Shown: in pieces, positions 16,490 through 52,876 of the stretch
How the letters are laid out: the number at the start of each line of letters is the position of its first letter
Position numbering within the stretch: position 1 is the stretch's first letter
Source: Rhizobium leguminosarum
GTDB taxonomy: Bacteria; Pseudomonadota; Alphaproteobacteria; Rhizobiales; Rhizobiaceae
Direction: 5' to 3'
NCBI RefSeq assembly: GCF_017876795.1
Contig: NZ_JAGIOR010000002.1
Span: 620,001 to 684,000, forward strand
Length of the DNA: 64,000 nt
Translations under genes and position numbers: made by a program
Notes under the pieces: model-generated
Seen by the model: only the letters and a program-made list of their open reading frames with translations
Databases searched by the model: none
What the model was told of the DNA's origin: nothing

Positions 16490-16805
16490 TGGCATCCTTG
16501 CAAGAAGGGCCGCGCAGGCGCGGCCGAGGTCGGCTTCGGCCTTAAGACAGCCGATGTCAACGGTTAGTTTCGCCGATGATTTTGTTTGATCGCCGTCGTC
16601 GCTGGGGTCGCTCTGCCCCTCGTCAATCAGTCCATGTGCATTGGAGTTTTTCCACCTATCTCCCAGGGGAAGAAGAGAAGCCTTCGTACTCGCCGCGTTG
16701 CCGGACATTTGCGGATACAAATCGGCATGACCTCGGACATATCTCGGATACATGAAAACGGCACCGTCTTGGGGCGTAAATTCAACCCTAAAACGGAGTT
16801 TCCCT

Positions 16806-18089
16806 TTGACGTCCTCCCCTCTTGATATTAACCGGCGCAATTTTCTGGCGGCTGCCGCCATCGCCAGCACCGCAACGATGTTAAAGCCTGCGATGTCATT
16901 TGCTACCGCTGGCGCAGCCGACGAGATTCGACCTTTCAAGGTAAACGTTCACGACAGCGCGATCCAAGAGTTGAAGCAGCGCCTTGCTGCAACGCGATGG
17001 CCAGCCAAGGAAAACGTCGATGACGACTCCCAGGGTGTCCAGCTCGACCGATTTCGCGCCCTCGTGAACTATTGGCAGGACGGTTACGACTGGCGGAAGG
17101 TCGAGGAAAAGCTCAATGCCAATCCGATGTTCATTACCGAAATCGACGGGCTCGATATCCATTTCATCCACGTCCGTTCCAAGCACGAGAACGCGCTGCC
17201 GTTGATCATGACCCACGGCTGGCCGGGTTCGATCCTTGAGATGCTCAAGATCATCGATCCGCTGACAAACCCGACTGCTCATGGCGGCACCGCCGAGGAT
17301 GCCTTCCATCTGGTCGTTCCGTCGATTCCGGGTTTCGGCTTTTCCGGTAAACCGAACGTGCGCGGATGGGGTTCCGACCACATTGGCCGCGTCTGGAGCA
17401 CGCTCATGAACCGGCTCGGATACCAAAAATACGTTTCGCAGGGCGGCGATTGCGGCTCGGTCATCTCACAGCGCATGGCGCATCAGAACGTTCCCGGATT
17501 GCTAGGCATTCACCTCACCATGCCTGCAATCGTCCCGAGCGAAATCGTGCCGATCCTGGCTGCAGGCGCTCCCGCGCCCGCGGAGCTTGACGGGGAGGAG
17601 CGAGCTTGTTTCGATAGGCTGGCGATCTTCTACCGAGATAGCGCTGCCTATGCGCAAATGATGGTCACGCGTCCGCAGACCATCGGCTATTCGTTGGTAG
17701 ATTCGCCGGTCGGAATGGCGGCTTGGATGTACGACAAGTTTGCTGAATGGACATATAGCGACAAGCAGCCGGAGAAGGTCCTGACGCGCGACGAGATGCT
17801 CGACGACATTTCGCTTTATTGGTTCACGGAGACCGGTGCGTCGGCTGCGCAAATCTACTGGGAAGACCATACCAACAACTTCAATGCCCTCGACAAGATC
17901 CCGACGTTGCCGGTGGCGGTCAGCGTCTTCCCAGGGGAAATCTATCAAGCTCCGAGGTCGTGGACTGAGCGAGCCTACGGCAACCTGATCTATTTCAACG
18001 AAGTTGATAACGGCGGACATTTCGCCGCTTGGGAACAGCCCGCGATCTTCACCAACGAAGTTCGGGCGGCGTTCCGTTCGCTACGCTAA
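16806..18089 (+). CDS. Exported epoxide hydrolase (EHN-type alpha/beta hydrolase)
   Basis: 427 residues from a TTG codon with ACGGAG upstream; an in-frame ATG at 16752 lacks a ribosome site. A Tat-like signal (NRRNFLAAAAIASTA) leads into the EHN domain (IRPFKVNVHDSAIQELKQRLAATRWP, about residues 40-150) and a hydrolase fold with oxyanion HGWPGS, nucleophile elbow GGDCGS (Asp), EDHTNNF and C-terminal NGGHFAAWEQP with catalytic His. Matches bacterial microsomal-type epoxide hydrolases; converts epoxides to diols. The Tat signal suggests a folded, periplasmic protein. Confidence 0.9.
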   Translation: MTSSPLDINRRNFLAAAAIASTATMLKPAMSFATAGAADEIRPFKVNVHDSAIQELKQRLAATRWPAKENVDDDSQGVQLDRFRALVNYWQDGYDWRKVEEKLNANPMFITEIDGLDIHFIHVRSKHENALPLIMTHGWPGSILEMLKIIDPLTNPTAHGGTAEDAFHLVVPSIPGFGFSGKPNVRGWGSDHIGRVWSTLMNRLGYQKYVSQGGDCGSVISQRMAHQNVPGLLGIHLTMPAIVPSEIVPILAAGAPAPAELDGEERACFDRLAIFYRDSAAYAQMMVTRPQTIGYSLVDSPVGMAAWMYDKFAEWTYSDKQPEKVLTRDEMLDDISLYWFTETGASAAQIYWEDHTNNFNALDKIPTLPVAVSVFPGEIYQAPRSWTERAYGNLIYFNEVDNGGHFAAWEQPAIFTNEVRAAFRSLR

Positions 18090-18224
18090 GATGAGCGCTT
18101 GATGGCCGTCGCCATTGCGGCGGCCGTCTCCTTCAGCCGCAAGCGAGCGCATCGTCCGATATCCAGTCTGAGTTCTATTTCAAGCACTTTGCGTTGTCGG
18201 CAGGTGTCGTGGTAGGAACTGGGT

Positions 18225-18547
18225 ATGAACTCACTAAGCGATCTAGATTGCCAAGCCTGCGGTGCGTGTTGCTCTTTCTCGGCTGATTGGCCAAGATTTT
18301 CCACGGAAAGTGACGCCGCTCTCGATTTGCTGCCGCCGCGCTTCATCGCGGCAGATGAGACGGGAATGCGTTGTAGTGGGTCGCGTTGCGATGCATTGTC
18401 GGGTCGGGTCGGGTCGGTTTTGAGACATCTTGTCTCGTCTACGATATTCGGCCTGTTGTTTGTCGCGAATGCGTTCCCGGAGATGCTGCCTGCCTGATGG
18501 CGCGTGACGCCTTCGGATTGACGGCGCCGCATCAGATCCTTGGGTAG
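18225..18547 (+). pseudogene. YkgJ-type cysteine cluster protein, frameshifted by a GTCGG repeat
   Basis: The first frame encodes CQACGACCSFSADWPRF and GMRCSGSRCDALSGRVG, the N-terminal part of a CxxCxxCC zinc/iron-chelating YkgJ-type protein. It then shifts at four tandem GTCGG units (18398-18417). The missing C-terminal part continues in another frame as FETSCLVYDIRPVVCREC ... CLMARDAFGL and stops at 18545-18547. Three units instead of four would restore one 105-residue frame. The current first frame ends at 18497 with a non-homologous tail. Either a pseudogene, a phase-variable gene, or a sequencing error. Confidence 0.8.
18398..18417 (+). repeat. Tandem pentanucleotide (GTCGG)4
   Basis: Four perfect 5-base units inside a coding region. 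Because five is not a multiple of three, each unit gained or lost shifts the frame of the surrounding cysteine cluster gene. Confidence 0.9.
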
Positions 18548-18597: not shown

Positions 18598-19167
18598 TTA
18601 GCGCAGCTTCTCAACGGCGATGGCGAGACACGTCTTGAACGCGGCAAGGTCGGTATAGAGTGCATCCCGAGGCGCGTCACCAACGATGAGGACGCCGCCG
18701 CGCCGCTCGATACCCGCATGCAGCATCAGATTGTCGGCCAGGCCGAAATCCTCGACCGCAACGCCGTTCGGGTCTCGCAGTCGACCTTCGGCATCATAGG
18801 CGACGGCCCCACCATAAAGATCGCTCACGCGTCCGCTGTGATCCCGGGCCACATTCGTGTAGGCGAATACCGGCTTACCACTTGCGCACATGAAGCCGAG
18901 CTCGAAGGCCGTCCCGGTATCGGCGGCAATGCCACGAAAGGGCGTCAGATTGGCTATGATGGCGTCAGCCTCCATCATCATCTTTTCGTCGACCGCGTTT
19001 ATCGCGGCTGCGCGCTCGCGCTTCGAGTTCGTGTGAGGGATTTCCAGATCACCGGGCGAGAGCGGGAGAAGTCCCGCCTCGCGGGCAAGCGCTGCCTTCC
19101 GGTCGAGCATTTCACGGGCGTTTGGAAGGAAGACTTCAGGACCGGCCAGATAAACTTTTTTTGTCAT
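18598..19167 (-). CDS. Nucleoside 2-deoxyribosyltransferase-like protein
   Basis: 189 residues from MTKKVYLAGPEVF, whose ATG follows GAGGTG; an in-frame ATG 57 bases upstream is less likely. Segments KVYLAGPEVFLPNA, ADAIIANLTPFRG, AADTGTAFELGFM (catalytic Glu in FELGF) and GRPVFAY-type strand match the nucleoside 2-deoxyribosyltransferase family, which transfers deoxyribose between bases in nucleotide salvage. A C-terminal segment VEDFGLADNLML is typical of the COG3613 branch. Cytoplasmic, monocistronic. Confidence 0.85.
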   Translation of the reverse strand: MTKKVYLAGPEVFLPNAREMLDRKAALAREAGLLPLSPGDLEIPHTNSKRERAAAINAVDEKMMMEADAIIANLTPFRGIAADTGTAFELGFMCASGKPVFAYTNVARDHSGRVSDLYGGAVAYDAEGRLRDPNGVAVEDFGLADNLMLHAGIERRGGVLIVGDAPRDALYTDLAAFKTCLAIAVEKLR

Positions 19168-19414: not shown

Positions 19415-19657
19415 ATGCGCCGCGATTTTTGGGACCAGCCCGTTGAGGTCATCATTGGGGATGGCGACCACCTTAAGAGTATCCGCAGCAGCAGGGACGC
19501 GCTCGCATATCTCATGACCTGTTGGCCGCGTAAGAAAGCAGCGTCCTTCGCCGTCGCGAAGAGGATCTGCACGGACGCCGTCGATGGGCGGGCCGATTCA
19601 TCGGCGGCCGCATCGGCATTCAAAGTTGCGGCGAAAGAAGCTGGCGTCCTTCATTAG
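19415..19657 (+). CDS. DUF982 domain protein
   Basis: 80 residues from the second ATG, correctly spaced from GAGGAG (the ATG at 19409 touches it). The pattern FWDQPVEVIIGDGDHLKSI, SRDALAYLMTCWP, and AAASAFKVAAKEAGV is the DUF982 signature, a small family abundant on rhizobial replicons and of unknown function. Confidence 0.85.
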   Translation: MRRDFWDQPVEVIIGDGDHLKSIRSSRDALAYLMTCWPRKKAASFAVAKRICTDAVDGRADSSAAASAFKVAAKEAGVLH

Positions 19658-19667
19658 TTGCAAGGAA

Positions 19668-19967
19668 ATCGATCCAGCATGCCTCCACCGGCCGCAGGAG
19701 GTGCTGCCGGGCGCGGAATACCAAAGTGACGAGGATCTGATTCGTCGCGTCGGCGATATCGCCACAACGATCTTCCATCCGGTCGGCACCTGTAAGATGG
19801 GCAGTGGCACGATGGCGGTCGTCGATTCGCAATTGCGGGTGCATGGGCTGGCGAATCTGCGGGTCGTCGATGCGTCGGTCATGCCGACGATCGTCTCGGG
19901 CAATACCAACTCGCCGGTGATCATGATTGCCGAGAAGGCCGCCGAAAGTATCCTGTCAGGGCAATAG
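19668..19967 (+). pseudogene. GMC oxidoreductase, C-terminal remnant
   Basis: Only the last 100 residues of a glucose-methanol-choline oxidoreductase remain: PQEVLPGAEYQSDEDLIRRVG, the active-site FHPVGTCKMG with its catalytic His, VVDASVMPTIVSGNTNSP with the conserved Asn, and IMIAEKAA. The FAD-binding N-terminal 400 residues are absent; the DUF982 gene occupies the upstream DNA. There is also a short internal loss after KMG. Not expected to be functional. Confidence 0.85.
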
Positions 19968-22513: not shown

Positions 22514-23120
22514 TCATCCGGGTTTCCGTGCGTAAAACGTGTTCCACGCTTCGTTGTTACGACCCATGCGGTATGCGTCCCACTCAAGATCCATGCCGGC
22601 GGCCTTGATGCACAACGCGAAGTCGTCACGGCGCCAGTAGGTCAGGTGGTAGGCACCGCTCGTCTCCCCGTCGCCATCACGCATTGTCACCAGGAAGACG
22701 CCTCCGGGGCGCAGCGCGGCGACGATCTTTTCAATGACTTGGCCGGTCTGGTCGCGAGGCACGTAGATGAGGACACAGAGAGCGATCACAGCGTCATAGG
22801 GGCCGCGGAGGTCGTCGGTGATGACGTTGAGGAACTCGCCCTGCTTGCCGCGCCGCCTGCAGTTCGAGAAACCGTTGCGTGGCATCGGTTCGCCTTACCA
22901 AAACATCCTGTGTCTCAAGGAAATCCGCATCCCATCCGGGGCCTGATCCGATCTCAAGGACCCGGCCGCCTTTGCCGGCGGCGACCGCGACCTGGCGCAA
23001 CGCCGCCTCCAGGCTGGGCGAGGGAAACGGACCAACGATGCGACTATAATCATCGGCACAATTTTCATAGGAATCGATCGCGCGTTGGGTGCCGGCCAAG
23101 GTGGCGGAAGAAATGGGCAT
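22514..23120 (-). pseudogene. Class I SAM-dependent methyltransferase, frameshifted
   Basis: Translation from 23120 gives a methyltransferase N-terminal half with motif I (GRVLEIGSGPGWDADFLE) up to QRFLELQAAR. The C-terminal half continues in another frame (KQGEFLNVITDDLRGPYDAVIALCVLIYV, LRPGGVFLVTMRDG, WRRDDF) and stops at 22514. The shift lies at about 22847-22857 in a GC-rich run reading GCGGCGCGGC on the coding strand; restoring two bases (one CG) joins the halves into a protein of about 200 residues. Probably a recent inactivation or a sequencing error. Confidence 0.8.
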
Positions 23121-23153: not shown

Positions 23154-23510
23154 TCAGCCCTTCATATCACCATGCTCAGCGTAAGGCCGCGTAATAAGCC
23201 CGAGCGGCAGCGGATCCAATGCCGCCATTCGTTCGCACGTCTCAACGGCTTCGGAAACGCGGCCGACGGCGAGCAAGGCGCGGCACAAAGGCGACCCCAC
23301 GATCGCCCCAATATACCGAGCCTAGCCGAATTCGACGGTCCGCGCAAAGATCGCCGGTCCGACTTCGATGATCTGGGCGTAATCTCCAATCTCAAGCAGG
23401 GCCTGCAGCAGAGCTGCCCCCGCCAGCACTTCGACCCGGCCGATGGAGGCTTGCCCGGCGCGCTTAGCCACGCTCCAAAAACCATCGACGCGAGAACTGT
23501 CCGAGGCCAT
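23154..23510 (-). pseudogene. Helical-repeat (TPR-like) protein remnant with in-frame stop
   Basis: One frame reads RVEVLAGAALLQALLEIGDYAQIIEVGPAIFARTVEFG, an amber stop (23322-23324), then without shifting frame ARYIGAIVGSPLCRALLAVGRVSEAVETCERMAALDPLPL to a TGA at 23154. The paired helices resemble tetratricopeptide repeats of a larger regulator or cyclase, but the parent family is not identified. Upstream the frame runs antisense to the hydrolase remnant, so the N-terminal part is lost. Confidence 0.55.
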
Positions 23511-23540
23511 GTCCACGGATGCCGCGACGATCAGTGCCTC

Positions 23541-23885
23541 GATACGGTTACCCAGATGATCGCCGGTTCTGCGTACCCTTATAACGAACGGCTTGCGCGC
23601 GCCTTTGTCGAACGGGACGTCAGGCGGGCGAAAAGCTTCGTCAGTGCCACCAATCATTTCATGCTGTGGGGCGGCCAGACCTTGAAGGGAAAATTGGCTG
23701 AACCGGCCACGCCCCTGCTTGTCATACACGGAACGGCTGAGCCGATATATCCGGTTGAGCACGGCGAACTGCTGGCGCAAACCGTCAAGGCAGCGAAGCT
23801 TGTTTGGCTCGAAGGTGGCGGTCACGAAATTCATCGCTATGATTGGGAAAAGATCGTTTCTGCTATCGACGCCCACTTGCAGTGA
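23541..23885 (+). pseudogene. Alpha/beta hydrolase, C-terminal remnant
   Basis: The last 115 residues of an alpha/beta hydrolase survive: AYPYNERLARAFVERDVRRA, LAEPATPLLVIHGTAEPIYP with the acid-residue strand, and LVWLEGGGHEIHRYDW with the catalytic His. The nucleophile domain is missing and upstream sequence in this frame is not hydrolase-like. Not expected to be active. Confidence 0.7.
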
Positions 23886-47141: not shown

Positions 47142-47836
47142 CTAACGCGAGCCAGCCTGCCGCATTTGCGCCGGCAGCGTCTCCCAGGCCCGGATCAGTT
47201 CGCCGATCGAGGCGGCCTCCATCTTGTGCATGACGTTGCTGCGATGCAGCTTGACCGTCACTTCGCTGATGCCGAGATCGAAGGCGATCTGCTTGTTGAG
47301 GCAAGTCCGCGCGCCACTTCATGCAGAACTTCGCGCTCGCGTTGCGTCAGCGTCTCCAGGCGTTTGACATTGCGTTTGGCGATTGCGGCTTCGGCCCGTC
47401 GTTCGGCATCCATCGCAATGGCCGCGGTGATGGCGTCGAGCAGCGTCTGGTCCCGTACCGGCTTGGTGAGAAAATCCACAGCACCCGCCTTCATCGCCTG
47501 GACGGTCATCGGAATGTCGCCGTGGCCGGTTAGAAAAATGATCGGTTTGGAAATGCCGTTTTCGGCCAGATGGCTCTGCAAGTGAAGGCCGCTTGCTCCG
47601 GGCATGCGCACATCGAGGATCAGGCAGCCGGGGTTTTCCAAGATATCGGCATCAAGTAATTCGCGGGTCGAGGCAAAACTGACCGACTGAAAGCCCGCCG
47701 ACAGGATCAACTCCGACAGCGCCTCGCGAACCGACGCGTCGTCATCGACGATAATGACGAGTGGCTGATCCTCTTCATATTGGCACTGCAATGATAACGG
47801 CGCCGATCTCCGCAGCAACGGCTGGTCAACTCTCAT
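47142..47836 (-). pseudogene. FixJ-type response regulator, frameshifted in the HTH
   Basis: Begins MRVDQPLLRR one base after the preceding stop, with GGAGGG upstream. Receiver domain intact (VIIVDDDASVREAL, phosphoacceptor in LILDVRMPG, FLTGHGDIPM, KPVRDQTLL). The LuxR-type HTH starts TLTQREREVLHEVARGL, then the frame shifts at about 47296-47305; the remainder NKQIAFDLGISEVTVKLHRSNVMHKMEAASIGELIRAW continues in another frame to TAG at 47142. As read, the shifted ORF ends at 47258 without a DNA-binding helix. One base lost or two gained explains it. Confidence 0.85.
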
Positions 47837-47837
47837 G

Positions 47838-48860
47838 TTACCCTCCATCTCTCGATTGGTGTAAAGCATTGTCGATAGCCGCCAGTAGGGCCTGGGCATC
47901 GAAGGGCTTGCGGAAGAATCCACTGCCTCCCTGGGCGCGGCCCTGATCCGCTATCTCGTGGCGGCCCGTGATCAGGAACACCGGCAACTCGGGACGTGAT
48001 TTTCTCACCAGGTCCCGAAGCTCGAAGCCGTCGATGCCGGGCATGCCGATATCGGTGATGAGCACATCAAGGTCCGACAGCCCGCTAACGAGCAGCGAGC
48101 CCGCCGACGGGAAGCCGCGGGCCACATAACCCGCTGATTCCAGAAGGTCGCCCATCGATTCCAGCAGTCTTGGATCGTCATCGACAATTGCGACGACATG
48201 TCTTGTCTCGTCCATGTTCAATTCCCCCCCCACTCGGCGCGAGTGGGTAATCGGTATTTCCAATTTCTCCGCGATCCGCACGAGATCGGCGAGCGACGCC
48301 GCCGCCATTTTTTGCATCACATTTCTTCTATGGATCTGCAGCGTAACTTCGCTGATCCCCAATTCGGCTGCTGCCTGCTTGTTGAGAAGACCGCTGACCA
48401 CGAGCGGCAGCACCTCGCGCTCGCGGGGCGTTAGGTCGAGATAGTGTCGTTTCAGCATATCGAGTTCGGCGCGTCCCGATCGCTTTTCCCGATCCTCGGC
48501 GAGTGCTGCATGGATTGCCGCCAGCAGATCCGCGTCACTGAACGGTTTGGTCAGAAAATCCACCGCGCCGTGCTTGATCGCGCGCACGGAGGAGGGAATA
48601 TCGCCGTGCCCGGTAATGAAGACGATCGGCGGATGGTCCCTGTCGGCGATCTGCCTCTGCAGGTCGAGGCCGTTGATGTCAGGCAGTTCGATATCGAGGA
48701 TGAGGCAGGCGGGCACGTCAGGCTTGTCCGCTTTCACGTAGTCGCCGGCCGATTCGAAGGCGACGGCACGCATGCCGTGCGCATCCATGAGCTCACCGAG
48801 CGCTTCGCGGATGCGTTCATCGTCATCGACGATGAAGACGATATGGTCGTCGGCTGTCAT
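47838..48860 (-). CDS. REC-HTH-REC fusion response regulator joined by a G8 tract
   Basis: 340 residues: FixJ-type receiver (VDDDERIREAL, Asp in LILDIELPDING, TGHGDIPSSV, KPF), LuxR HTH (LTPREREVLPLVVSGLLNKQAAAELGISEVTLQIHRRNVMQKM, about 145-190), then a second receiver (VAIVDDDPRLLESM, Asp in LITDIGMPGIDG). The join is GTGGGGGGGGAATTGAACATG; with seven Gs the first protein would end at TGA right after the tract and the second would start at the ATG at 48215. So the fusion may be an indel of two separate genes. It overlaps the kinase stop by four bases. Confidence 0.85.
   Translation of the reverse strand: MTADDHIVFIVDDDERIREALGELMDAHGMRAVAFESAGDYVKADKPDVPACLILDIELPDINGLDLQRQIADRDHPPIVFITGHGDIPSSVRAIKHGAVDFLTKPFSDADLLAAIHAALAEDREKRSGRAELDMLKRHYLDLTPREREVLPLVVSGLLNKQAAAELGISEVTLQIHRRNVMQKMAAASLADLVRIAEKLEIPITHSRRVGGELNMDETRHVVAIVDDDPRLLESMGDLLESAGYVARGFPSAGSLLVSGLSDLDVLITDIGMPGIDGFELRDLVRKSRPELPVFLITGRHEIADQGRAQGGSGFFRKPFDAQALLAAIDNALHQSRDGG
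48224..48231 (-). repeat. Homopolymeric G8 tract controlling gene fusion
   Basis: Eight Gs on the coding strand at the HTH/second-receiver junction. Loss of one G creates a stop codon (AAT TGA) and leaves the second receiver with its own ATG eight bases downstream, the tract then serving as part of its ribosome site. Confidence 0.75.
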
Positions 48861-51800
48861 GACGCCGCCTTTGTTTCAATGGGCAATGTGAAGATCAACG
48901 TTGCTCCGTGCGGATTGTTCTTCTCTGCCCACAACCGTCCACCGTGCAGTTCGACGATCGAGCGGCAGATCGCCAGACCCATGCCCATGCCGTTTTCCTT
49001 GGTCGTGAAGAACGGCTCGAACATCTTCTCGGGAAACTCGATCCCCTGGCCACGATCGCTGATCTCGGTCTGAACGGCATTTCCCATATGGCGCACGCGC
49101 ATTCCGATCACCCTGTCGCCGGCGACGGTCTCCATCGCCTCGATACCGTTGCGGACGAGATTGATCAGAACCTGCTGGATCTGGATACGATCGATGGCGA
49201 TGAGCGGCAGGTTCCCATCGACGTCCACGTCCATCCTGGCGCGCCGCCGGGCCGCTTCGTCGGCCATGAGGTTGCGCGCTTCGTCGATGACGCCGGAGAG
49301 CGTCACGTACACCCTTCTGTCTGCGGATTGCTTGAACAGGGCGCGGATGCGGCTGACGACATCCGCCGCCGAGTTGGCGTCCCGGATGATGCGCTCAACC
49401 GTTCTCTGCGCCCGCTCCATATTCGGGGGCTCTGCCATCAGCCAGCGCTGGCAGGCATGCGAGTTTGCGACGACGGCGGCAAGCGGCTGGTTCACCTCAT
49501 GGGCGATGGAGGCTGAAAGCTCGGCAAGGCTCGCCACCTGGCTCGCCCGTGCAAGGCCTTCCCGCGCCTGCCGGAGATCCACCTCCGTTCGAACCTCACT
49601 GTCGATATCAAGGCAGATGACATTCCACTGGACGATGACGCCTTCGGCATTGCGCATCGGTGCTGCACGCGTCTCGACCCACCGATATTCGCCATCGAAC
49701 CGCCGCAGACGATGCCGGCGCGCATAGGGCTCGCCGGTGGACAATGAATGGGCATAATTCTCTTTGACCCCAGCCACGTCGTCGGGATGAACGCCGGCAT
49801 CGAGTGTGCCGTCCAGCCGGGTTTTTCCCGTTCCATCAAGCTCTTCGAGCTTATACCCCAGGAAATCGCGAAGCTGAGGATTGCGGTATACCGGTTCCCC
49901 ATCGGGTGCTGCGCAATCGATCATCGCCGGCAGTGTTTCGACGATCTGCCAGAGGGAACGTTCCCTCTCGCGCAACTCTTCCTCTATGCGCAACTGATCG
50001 TCGATATCATGCGTCAGGCCGTACCATTGAATGATCCGTCCGCTTTCGTCCCTCAGTGGTTCGGCGCTGCCTCTGACCCAGCGGTAGACGCCATCGGCGC
50101 GTCGCAGGCGATACTGTTTCGAGAAGCGCTCGCCGGTCGCGAAGGAATGCTTCAGCGCCTCGGCTAGGCTTTCCGCATCGTCGGGATGAATGGCGGCTTC
50201 GATGATGGCGGACAGCCGGTTCATGCCGGGCTTGCCCGTGTCTGCAATATCGGGGCCGAGAAAATTGATCAGCCGCTTGTTGAAAAAGGTCGGTTCGCCC
50301 TCTGCATTCAGGCGCCAGAGAAGGCTCGGAACGATGTCGACGAGCTGTGACAGCTCCCGTTCCCGCTCACGCAGGGCCTGTTGCGCACGCATCTCGTCAT
50401 CGATGTCGATCGCAGCCGCGTACCATTGCACGATCGCTCCATTCTGATCCCGCAACGGCTCTGCGCGGCCTTCCATCCAGCGATATTCGCCGTCCGCCCA
50501 ACGCCGGCGATATCGTATCGTGTAGGGCTCGCCGGTCGCAAGCGCATGGGCGAGTATCTCCCGCATGCGCGGTCCATCTTCTGGATGCACGGTTGCCCCG
50601 ATGATCGCCGCCGAGCGGCTGATATCAGGCGTGTCCCAGGCTGCGACGTCATCCACTGCGCGGCGACAAACAAGGTGAGACTCATCCTGATCGTCGCGCT
50701 ATAATCCACTCCAATGGATTGCAGGGTGCGCTTGCTGAAGAAGGTCGGTTTGCCGTCGGGCGCCATGCGGGCGATGTGCACCGGGACCATGTCCACGAGC
50801 TGCGACAGTTCGCGCTCGCGGTCACGCAAGGCCTCCAGCGCACGCACCTCCTCATCGATATCGAGAGAAACGCCGTACCATTGCACTACCCTTCCGTCGT
50901 CGTCGTGCCGGGGTTCGACCCTGCACTCCGCCCAGCGGTAGACGCCGTCCTTTTCGCGCCAGCGAAACCGCATCGCGGTGCCGCCGCCGCTTTCGAAACA
51001 ATCCTGCAGCGTGCGCTGGACGTCGGGCGCGTCTTCGGGATGGATCAGCTGCTGCAGCAGCTCTTCGATGCGCGGCTCGCCGAGGGCGTCGAAATTGGCG
51101 ATGACGGCGCGGAAATGGTCCTGATAGCGTTTGTTGAAATAGACCGATCCACCCGCCGGCTCCACGCTCCAGACGCGAACCGGCACCGCGTCGATCATCT
51201 GCCGCAACGTTCGCTCGCTCTGGCGCACCGCTTCTTCCGCACGGACGTGATCGTCGATGTCGTGGCAAAGGCCATACCACTGGACGATGCTGCCGGCCTG
51301 ATCCCGCATCGGCTCGGCGCGGCTCGACATCCAATGATAGACACCGTCGGCGCGGCGTAGCCGATACCGCATGGCGAAGTTTTCGCCGGTGGCGAGGCAT
51401 TGGGTGAGCGCCTGGGTGAAGCCGCCTGCATCATCGGGATGAATGACCGCCTCCAACAGGCTCATGCCGGGCCTCTCCGAATCCGCGACATCGAAACCGA
51501 GGAAGTCGACCATCCGTCGGTTGAAGAAGGTCGGTTCGCCCTGGGGTGTCAGACGCCAGACGTGGCTTGGAACCATGTCGACAAGCTGCGAGAGCTCCTG
51601 CTCCCGCTCGCGCAGCGTCTCCACGCTTTGGCGCAATGTCAGCACGGCCAGCTGGTGTTGCCGGGATATGGCGGCAACGATCAGCGCCGAAAATGCCGAG
51701 ATGGCCAGAAAGAGCTGCAGCATGATCTGCTTGTGTTTCTGGGACTCGGGATCGCCGGCGAACTGACCGGTGCCTGTTATCGTGAAGATGGCCGTAATGA

Positions 51801-52623
51801 GGGCGAGGAGAGCCAGCGATATGGCGGCGCCCTTGAATTCGAACCGGACTGCGGCCCAAAGAAGGGGCGGCATGATGATGTAGGCGAAGGGAAGGTAGCC
51901 GCTGAGAGACAGAGCGGCGACACCGAGAAAAATCAGTCCAAGGACGCAAGCCTCCACCCATTGCGCGGCCGAGAGCCGAGTCTTGCCGCGCCAGTTGTGG
52001 ACCACGGCGAGCGCCAGCGGCGCGACGATCAGGACGCCGGTTGCGTCACCGATCCACCAGAGAGGCCATGCCGTCACGAAGGATTGCGACTGGATGCCAA
52101 ACCAGGCAAGCGTCGCACTTCCCACCGTCGCACTCACGACTGGCGCAATTCCGGCGCCCAGCACGACGAATGCGAGAACTTCCTGCAAGGTTTCCAGCTG
52201 CGCCGGCCGCTTCAAGGTCCGATTGATCAGCCATGCCGCGACCACCGCTTCAAGAGCGTTGCCGACATAGATCAGGAAGGCCGCAGGCAGTGGACTGTGG
52301 AACCAGAGGACATTGCTGAACAGCTCTGCCAGGCAGCCCCCCAGTATCCACCATGGCCAACTGCGCCTGGAGGCGAGGATGAGCGTAGCGATGAAAAGCC
52401 CGCCCGGAGGCCAGATGGAAATACCCGTTCCCGGCACGATCGCGAGCAACTGGGCGAAGCCGCAGGCGAGCACATAGGCGACAATAAAAAGCATGAGATA
52501 GAGGAATCGGGGGCGGTGCGACCAGACGCTCATCATCAACCGTTCCTGCCGGACGGAAAAAGCCGGGGGATCGTCAGCATTTAGTGCAGCACTCGTTTTC
52601 GATGTCGGGATCGGCGAGCTCAT
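48857..52623 (-). pseudogene. MASE1-multi-PAS hybrid-type sensor histidine kinase, frameshifted
   Basis: N-terminal MASE1 membrane domain (about eight helices; PGTGISIWPPGGLFIATLIL), then repeated PAS/PAC units each with a 'HPDD...YR.RRADG.YRW' core (at least five), ending in a FixL-like kinase: SLAELSASIAHEVNQPLAAVVANSHACQRWL, N box QQVLINLVRNGIEAM, G1 ISDRGQGIEF, and FFTTKENGMGMGLAICRSIVELHGG. The frame breaks near 50698: one frame reads to TLQSIGVDYS and another resumes at DDQDESHLVCRRAVDDVAAW. Restoring one base gives a single protein of about 1,255 residues. Start at ATG 52623 is uncertain; an ATG at 52536 after AGGAA is also possible. Confidence 0.85.
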
Positions 52624-52876
52624 GATCGAACCGTAACCCCGTGGAACCACAGCCGCAACTCATGGAAATCCATGCATTGCGCGGAGAGGTAGCGTTGCGC
52701 CGGGGCTGCCCTTCGGCGCGAACGAGGAACCGAAGGACTGCTCCCGTTCCACCGGGGCATCCTAAACCTTGGGTCTGCTCCGCTATACCTGAGGCTAAGG
52801 CCCCAAGCCTCACGCATGATGGAAGGGGTTTGACTTTCCGGTCATTGTCGATCCAATCGATCGCGAGGATGCTGAC

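Follow-up and report, generated by a model that had tools for sequence, protein, structure and literature searches.

The window, which is the whole 64,000-nucleotide stretch of Rhizobium leguminosarum DNA that we analysed, contains a small gene of the YkgJ type whose coding sequence is divided between two reading frames. On the plus strand, an ATG at 18225, preceded at a distance of 7 nt by AGGA (18214..18217, plus strand), which we read from the sequence as a putative ribosome-binding site, opens an N-terminal frame (18225..18497) that carries the motifs CQACGACC and MRCSGSRC, has counterparts in relatives and, in the list of open reading frames, runs to a stop at 18497. Of the 90 amino acids in this ORF, 63 are native and the following 27 are out of frame. 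The C-terminal half of the same gene (TSCLVYDIRPVVCRECVPGDAAC, with four cysteines), recognized from its ORF and from a codon-anchored comparison with relatives, reads TSCLVYDIRPVVCREC... and is open in the other frame at 18386..18547 on the plus strand, with the last stop upstream of it at 18374. At the point where the two frames part lies a (GTCGG)4 tract (18398..18417, plus strand), a 100% perfect repeat, which we characterized by means of the sequence itself, the relatives, a count across the genus, and a chance model. An earlier note on this DNA had claimed that the YkgJ-type frame breaks exactly at this tract and that the five-base unit decides the frame, and both claims held: the N-terminal frame goes on to 18497, the C-terminal half continues in the other frame to 18547, and the excess over the eight relatives compared is exactly 5 nt. 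The tract is, as in phase-variable genes, a tandem repeat within a coding region whose unit count sets the frame; the gene, as pseudogenes do, has a broken frame where its orthologues in the syntenic position are intact.

The assignment to a YkgJ-type cysteine-cluster family was confirmed by the homologues. PF03692 is present in 45 of the 46 relatives found, and 70% of the N-terminal ORF, used as query, aligns at 95% identity with a protein of Rhizobium sp. CCGE 510 carrying this domain; the database of the protein homologue search was clustered at 90%, so that intact alleles of the same species are not distinguishable in it. Neither half of the gene, taken alone, gave a Pfam match at E ≤ 0.001, and a search of the whole genome for PF03692 returned one gene, on contig C1, with the window locus absent from the result. 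Like the members of the YkgJ or CxxCxxCC family (PF03692), the window gene keeps the cysteines of its nearest relatives; unlike them, it is out of frame, CxxCxxCC and the downstream cysteines being present as residues but spread over two frames instead of one, and the last four cysteines are thus missing from the product. The gene is flanked upstream by an epoxide hydrolase gene (EHN plus alpha/beta hydrolase; 16752..18089, plus strand) and downstream by a nucleoside 2-deoxyribosyltransferase gene (18598..19167, minus strand). The block of epoxide hydrolase, ykgJ, and nucleoside deoxyribosyltransferase is common to the window and plasmid p1 of Rhizobium sp. NZLR1, in the same order, and ykgJ and the transferase are present in the same order in C104.

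We chose the eight closest relatives (R. phaseoli JHI366, NZLR1, CCGE 510, R. redzepovicii, C104, WSM2304, CF080, and R. acidisoli), which represent seven distinct sequences, and compared them with the window codon by codon. Between two conserved codon blocks the window has 26 nt and the relatives 21 nt (8/8), or three unit-lengths, which agrees with the statement in the earlier note that three units join the two parts of the gene. These 21 nt code for Leu-Ser-Gly-Arg-Val-Gly-Phe/Val/Leu, with Ala for Ser in NZLR1. Three perfect GTCGG units together with read-through in a single frame were found in two of the eight, R. leguminosarum WSM2304 and R. acidisoli, whose allele is one slip away from the window state. 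In the other six the repeat is interrupted, the first unit or more being altered (GTCAG, GGCAG, GTCCG and so on), and the purity of the repeat is not kept across relatives as it would be in a phase-variable gene. Between species, the unit count amounts to one four-unit allele, that of the window, versus three unit-lengths in all eight compared relatives. Because a conserved Ser-Gly-Arg-Val-Gly stretch has codons that spell the tract and the tract's purity is lost in six of eight relatives, the repeat is a by-product of the codons.

With the tract excluded, dN between the window gene and seven relatives is 0.03-0.04 and dS 0.25-0.49, and the eighth relative (L012; dN 0.09, dS 0.47) stands farther away; dN and dS between the window and its relatives fall inside the range seen between intact genes. 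The resulting dN/dS of about 0.06-0.13 against the seven relatives, over 91 codons, which are few, is also as between intact genes. Since codon constraint in the window gene resembles that of intact genes, the break would be recent, or a sequence error, or the gene would sometimes be used.

A wider spacing census covered 122 loci, equivalent to 107 distinct stretches, with the window's own locus (L001) included and a 60-base match (L008) omitted. The loci were drawn from the best 80 of 166 matches, from genus genomes, where not every place with a DNA match contributed a locus, and from 8 plasmid stretches out of 74 matching records; a locus passed when a single alignment spanned residues 50-76. 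By this measure, the frame stays unbroken across the tract region in 120 of the 122 loci; the two that break it are the window's own locus and R. leguminosarum Ta6k. In thirteen of the 120, the alignment was marked as having a stop close to its C-terminal end, and we read these stops as normal gene ends. As the census looks at residues 50-76 only, breaks elsewhere in the gene pass, for example that in RCAM0610. At the match in RCAM0626 no gene is listed, and one tblastn match there extends over residues 1-84 of a query of 106 residues. Variation among homologues by whole unit lengths was considered and rejected, Ta6k differing by a one-base change where the window has its tract and RCAM0610 by a two-base change further upstream. 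The (GTCGG)4 tract itself was found in 1 of 148 genus genomes, the window's own. A DNA match to ykgJ was found in 40 of the 148, indicating that ykgJ is an accessory, patchily distributed gene.

We censused period-5 tracts over 464 kb of the 939-kb contig (positions 1-400000 of contig C2 plus the window), and (GTCGG)4 was the sole one of at least 15 bp. A simulation with an order-3 Markov model of the contig (12 × 464 kb) gave tracts of at least 15 bp 1.5 times per 464 kb and tracts of at least 20 bp 0 times in all 12 sets; the window tract is longer than chance. No other (GTCGG)3 was found in the genome outside this tract, and a family of GTCGG-controlled genes was rejected for that reason.

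These observations bear on slipped-strand phase variation, which the earlier note had put forward and in which the (GTCGG)n tract would gain and lose units at a high rate so that some cells make intact protein. A 5-nt unit in a coding frame would give ON and OFF states by unit count, the tract exceeds its chance length, and codon constraint is still visible in the gene. There is also a precedent in hsdM of Haemophilus influenzae, which carries (GACGA)4 (Zaleski et al. 2005, as reported in an excerpt of PMC2651432). Like the window gene, hsdM has four 5-nt copies in its coding region, and one unit sets the frame; the excerpt describes its four-to-three change as about as frequent as the changes in tetranucleotide tracts of much greater length and places the threshold for pentanucleotides at three or more units, so that four units would in principle be long enough. 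Unlike the window gene, however, hsdM has a unit count that differs between strains (one, two, or four) and a rate of change that has been measured, whereas the window offers one off-length allele. Four units also fall below the penta-repeat cut-off of PhasomeIt, which is five or more units according to an excerpt of PMC6321876. Moreover, the only other out-of-frame length at the site among the 122 loci is the one-base change of Ta6k, repeat purity is lost in most of the close relatives, and the genome lacks a second (GTCGG)3. Among the papers listed in searches for phase variation in rhizobia and alphaproteobacteria, no title names such a gene, and neither do the openings of the rhizobial abstracts, which says little about the literature as a whole. 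Given a four-unit tract in a single genome, its interruption in close relatives, and the presence of other breaks in the 64 kb, the claim of slipped-strand phase variation was not borne out, and we consider it improbable. A reversible switch of low frequency, in which the codon choice for Ser-Gly-Arg-Val-Gly would be a slippage hotspot turning the cysteine-cluster protein off and on, seems to us marginally more doubtful still.

The other breaks were detected by comparison with NZLR1, which offered 65 genes: 53 were matched (one in part), and the other 12 were either missing or aligned over less than 30%. A net frame change was found in 4 of 52 near-full-length genes: ykgJ (+5); a SAM-dependent methyltransferase gene (22514..23120, minus strand; -2), which has lost one GC of GCGCGC and whose frame, intact in NZLR1 and R. 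acidisoli, is broken; a response-regulator gene (47143..47836, minus strand; +2), which has an insertion in its C-terminal part and whose counterparts in NZLR1, N324, and R. acidisoli are open; and a second response-regulator gene (+1, in a G run). As controls, two 50-kb stretches of NZLR1 were compared with 400 kb elsewhere on the contig. Of the 39 genes offered from one stretch, 34 had an orthologue there, and 1 of these 34, repC, had a net frame change, of one base; of the 53 genes from the other, 0 had an orthologue. The change in repC (contig C2, about 285831-287128, L143) lies near the 3' end relative to the repC of NZLR1 and is either natural C-terminal variation or a sequence error.

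Both affected response regulators belong to a phosphorelay operon (47143-52650, minus strand) that consists of a PAS-domain kinase and three response regulators, one with the +2 and another with the +1 change. At 48213-48241 (minus strand), a G8 run at the end of a response-regulator gene puts it in one frame with the response regulator that follows, giving an ORF of 340 aa (47838-48860). The run is G7 in 15 of 16 matching genus genomes and G6, with overlapping genes, in C104, and the two genes are annotated separately in NZLR1, N324, and R. acidisoli. Where N324 and R. acidisoli encode the kinase in a single 3.6-kb gene, the window has two ORFs that overlap and that, compared with N324, contain inserted sequence; the kinase of NZLR1 carries a one-base loss of its own. 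The operon looks decayed.

Whole genes are missing as well. The window lacks the pyridoxamine-oxidase gene of NZLR1 and a block of about 11 kb for sugar transport that NZLR1 has, and most of the AAA ATPase gene found there is gone too. At the junction 19653-19687, where NZLR1 has about 11 kb more (a sugar ABC transporter, an aldo/keto reductase, a glycerol-3-phosphate dehydrogenase, and a kinase), the window keeps the 3' end of a GMC oxidoreductase gene as a remnant. At 23193-23548 there is a 356-bp remnant of the AAA ATPase gene, the full gene of 2880 nt lying by the methyltransferase gene in NZLR1 and R. acidisoli. Because the other frame breaks and the gene losses share the 64-kb window, this segment looks like one that is losing genes (gene erosion), with some chance of residual sequence errors. 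A mismatch-repair mutator was rejected: MutS and MutL are open and above the cut-off, and a mismatch-repair defect is therefore no explanation for the several indels.

Several frame breaks in one assembly, those in 4 of 52 genes against NZLR1 and that in repC in the control stretch, could also mean that the break in ykgJ is an assembly or base-calling error and that the true sequence has three units. For RCAM0610, only 458 features are listed over the 1.2 Mb of the record with the broken ykgJ, a sign that frame breaks of this kind can be errors. Yet of the four changes in the window (+5, -2, +2, and +1) only one affects a homopolymer, the 20-bp tract should lie within the span of ordinary reads, and the genome was scored as 100% complete and 1% contaminated. 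We regard an error at the tract as unlikely, if less so than reversible switching.

A further possibility is that ribosomal or transcriptional slippage restores the frame and the four-unit gene still gives full protein. Slipping back by one base would lead into the C-terminal frame, and the tract is followed by a T4 run. The N-terminal ORF, however, contains no in-frame X-XXY-YYZ heptamer, on which ground rescue by a slippery heptamer was rejected; its homopolymers of at least four bases are two T4 runs only, and the eight compared relatives have no need of a slippage site. Frame rescue of this sort appears to us very improbable.

We conclude that a recent frameshift in this lineage by duplication of one repeat unit is the best explanation, and we put its probability at roughly 60%. 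In the three-unit ground state, the codons for Ser-Gly-Arg-Val-Gly would happen to spell a near-perfect pentanucleotide repeat; a base change that made the repeat perfect would have made slippage likelier; and replication slippage would then have duplicated one GTCGG unit. With the five extra bases the reading frame changes from residue 64 on and the four C-terminal cysteines are lost, leaving a product that is very probably inactive, and we infer that the four-unit state is stable rather than switching. That related strains have an unbroken gene favours an ordinary recent loss mutation, or a sequence error, over a switch. The earlier note had named a fixed loss and an assembly error as its alternatives, and with the four-unit tract confined to one genome and other breaks nearby, we hold these to be more likely than phase variation.

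Slippage frameshifts and early pseudogenes at short tandem repeats are an ordinary phenomenon. The window gene resembles them in having one extra unit in one genome while its relatives with three unit-lengths are intact; it differs in that it shows no further decay. If mixed unit counts were present in one culture, the gene would provide an example of translational phase variation in rhizobia. If slippage alone accounts for the tract, the locus would be another gene loss on a large rhizobial replicon, one with a clear molecular cause in codons that spell a repeat.
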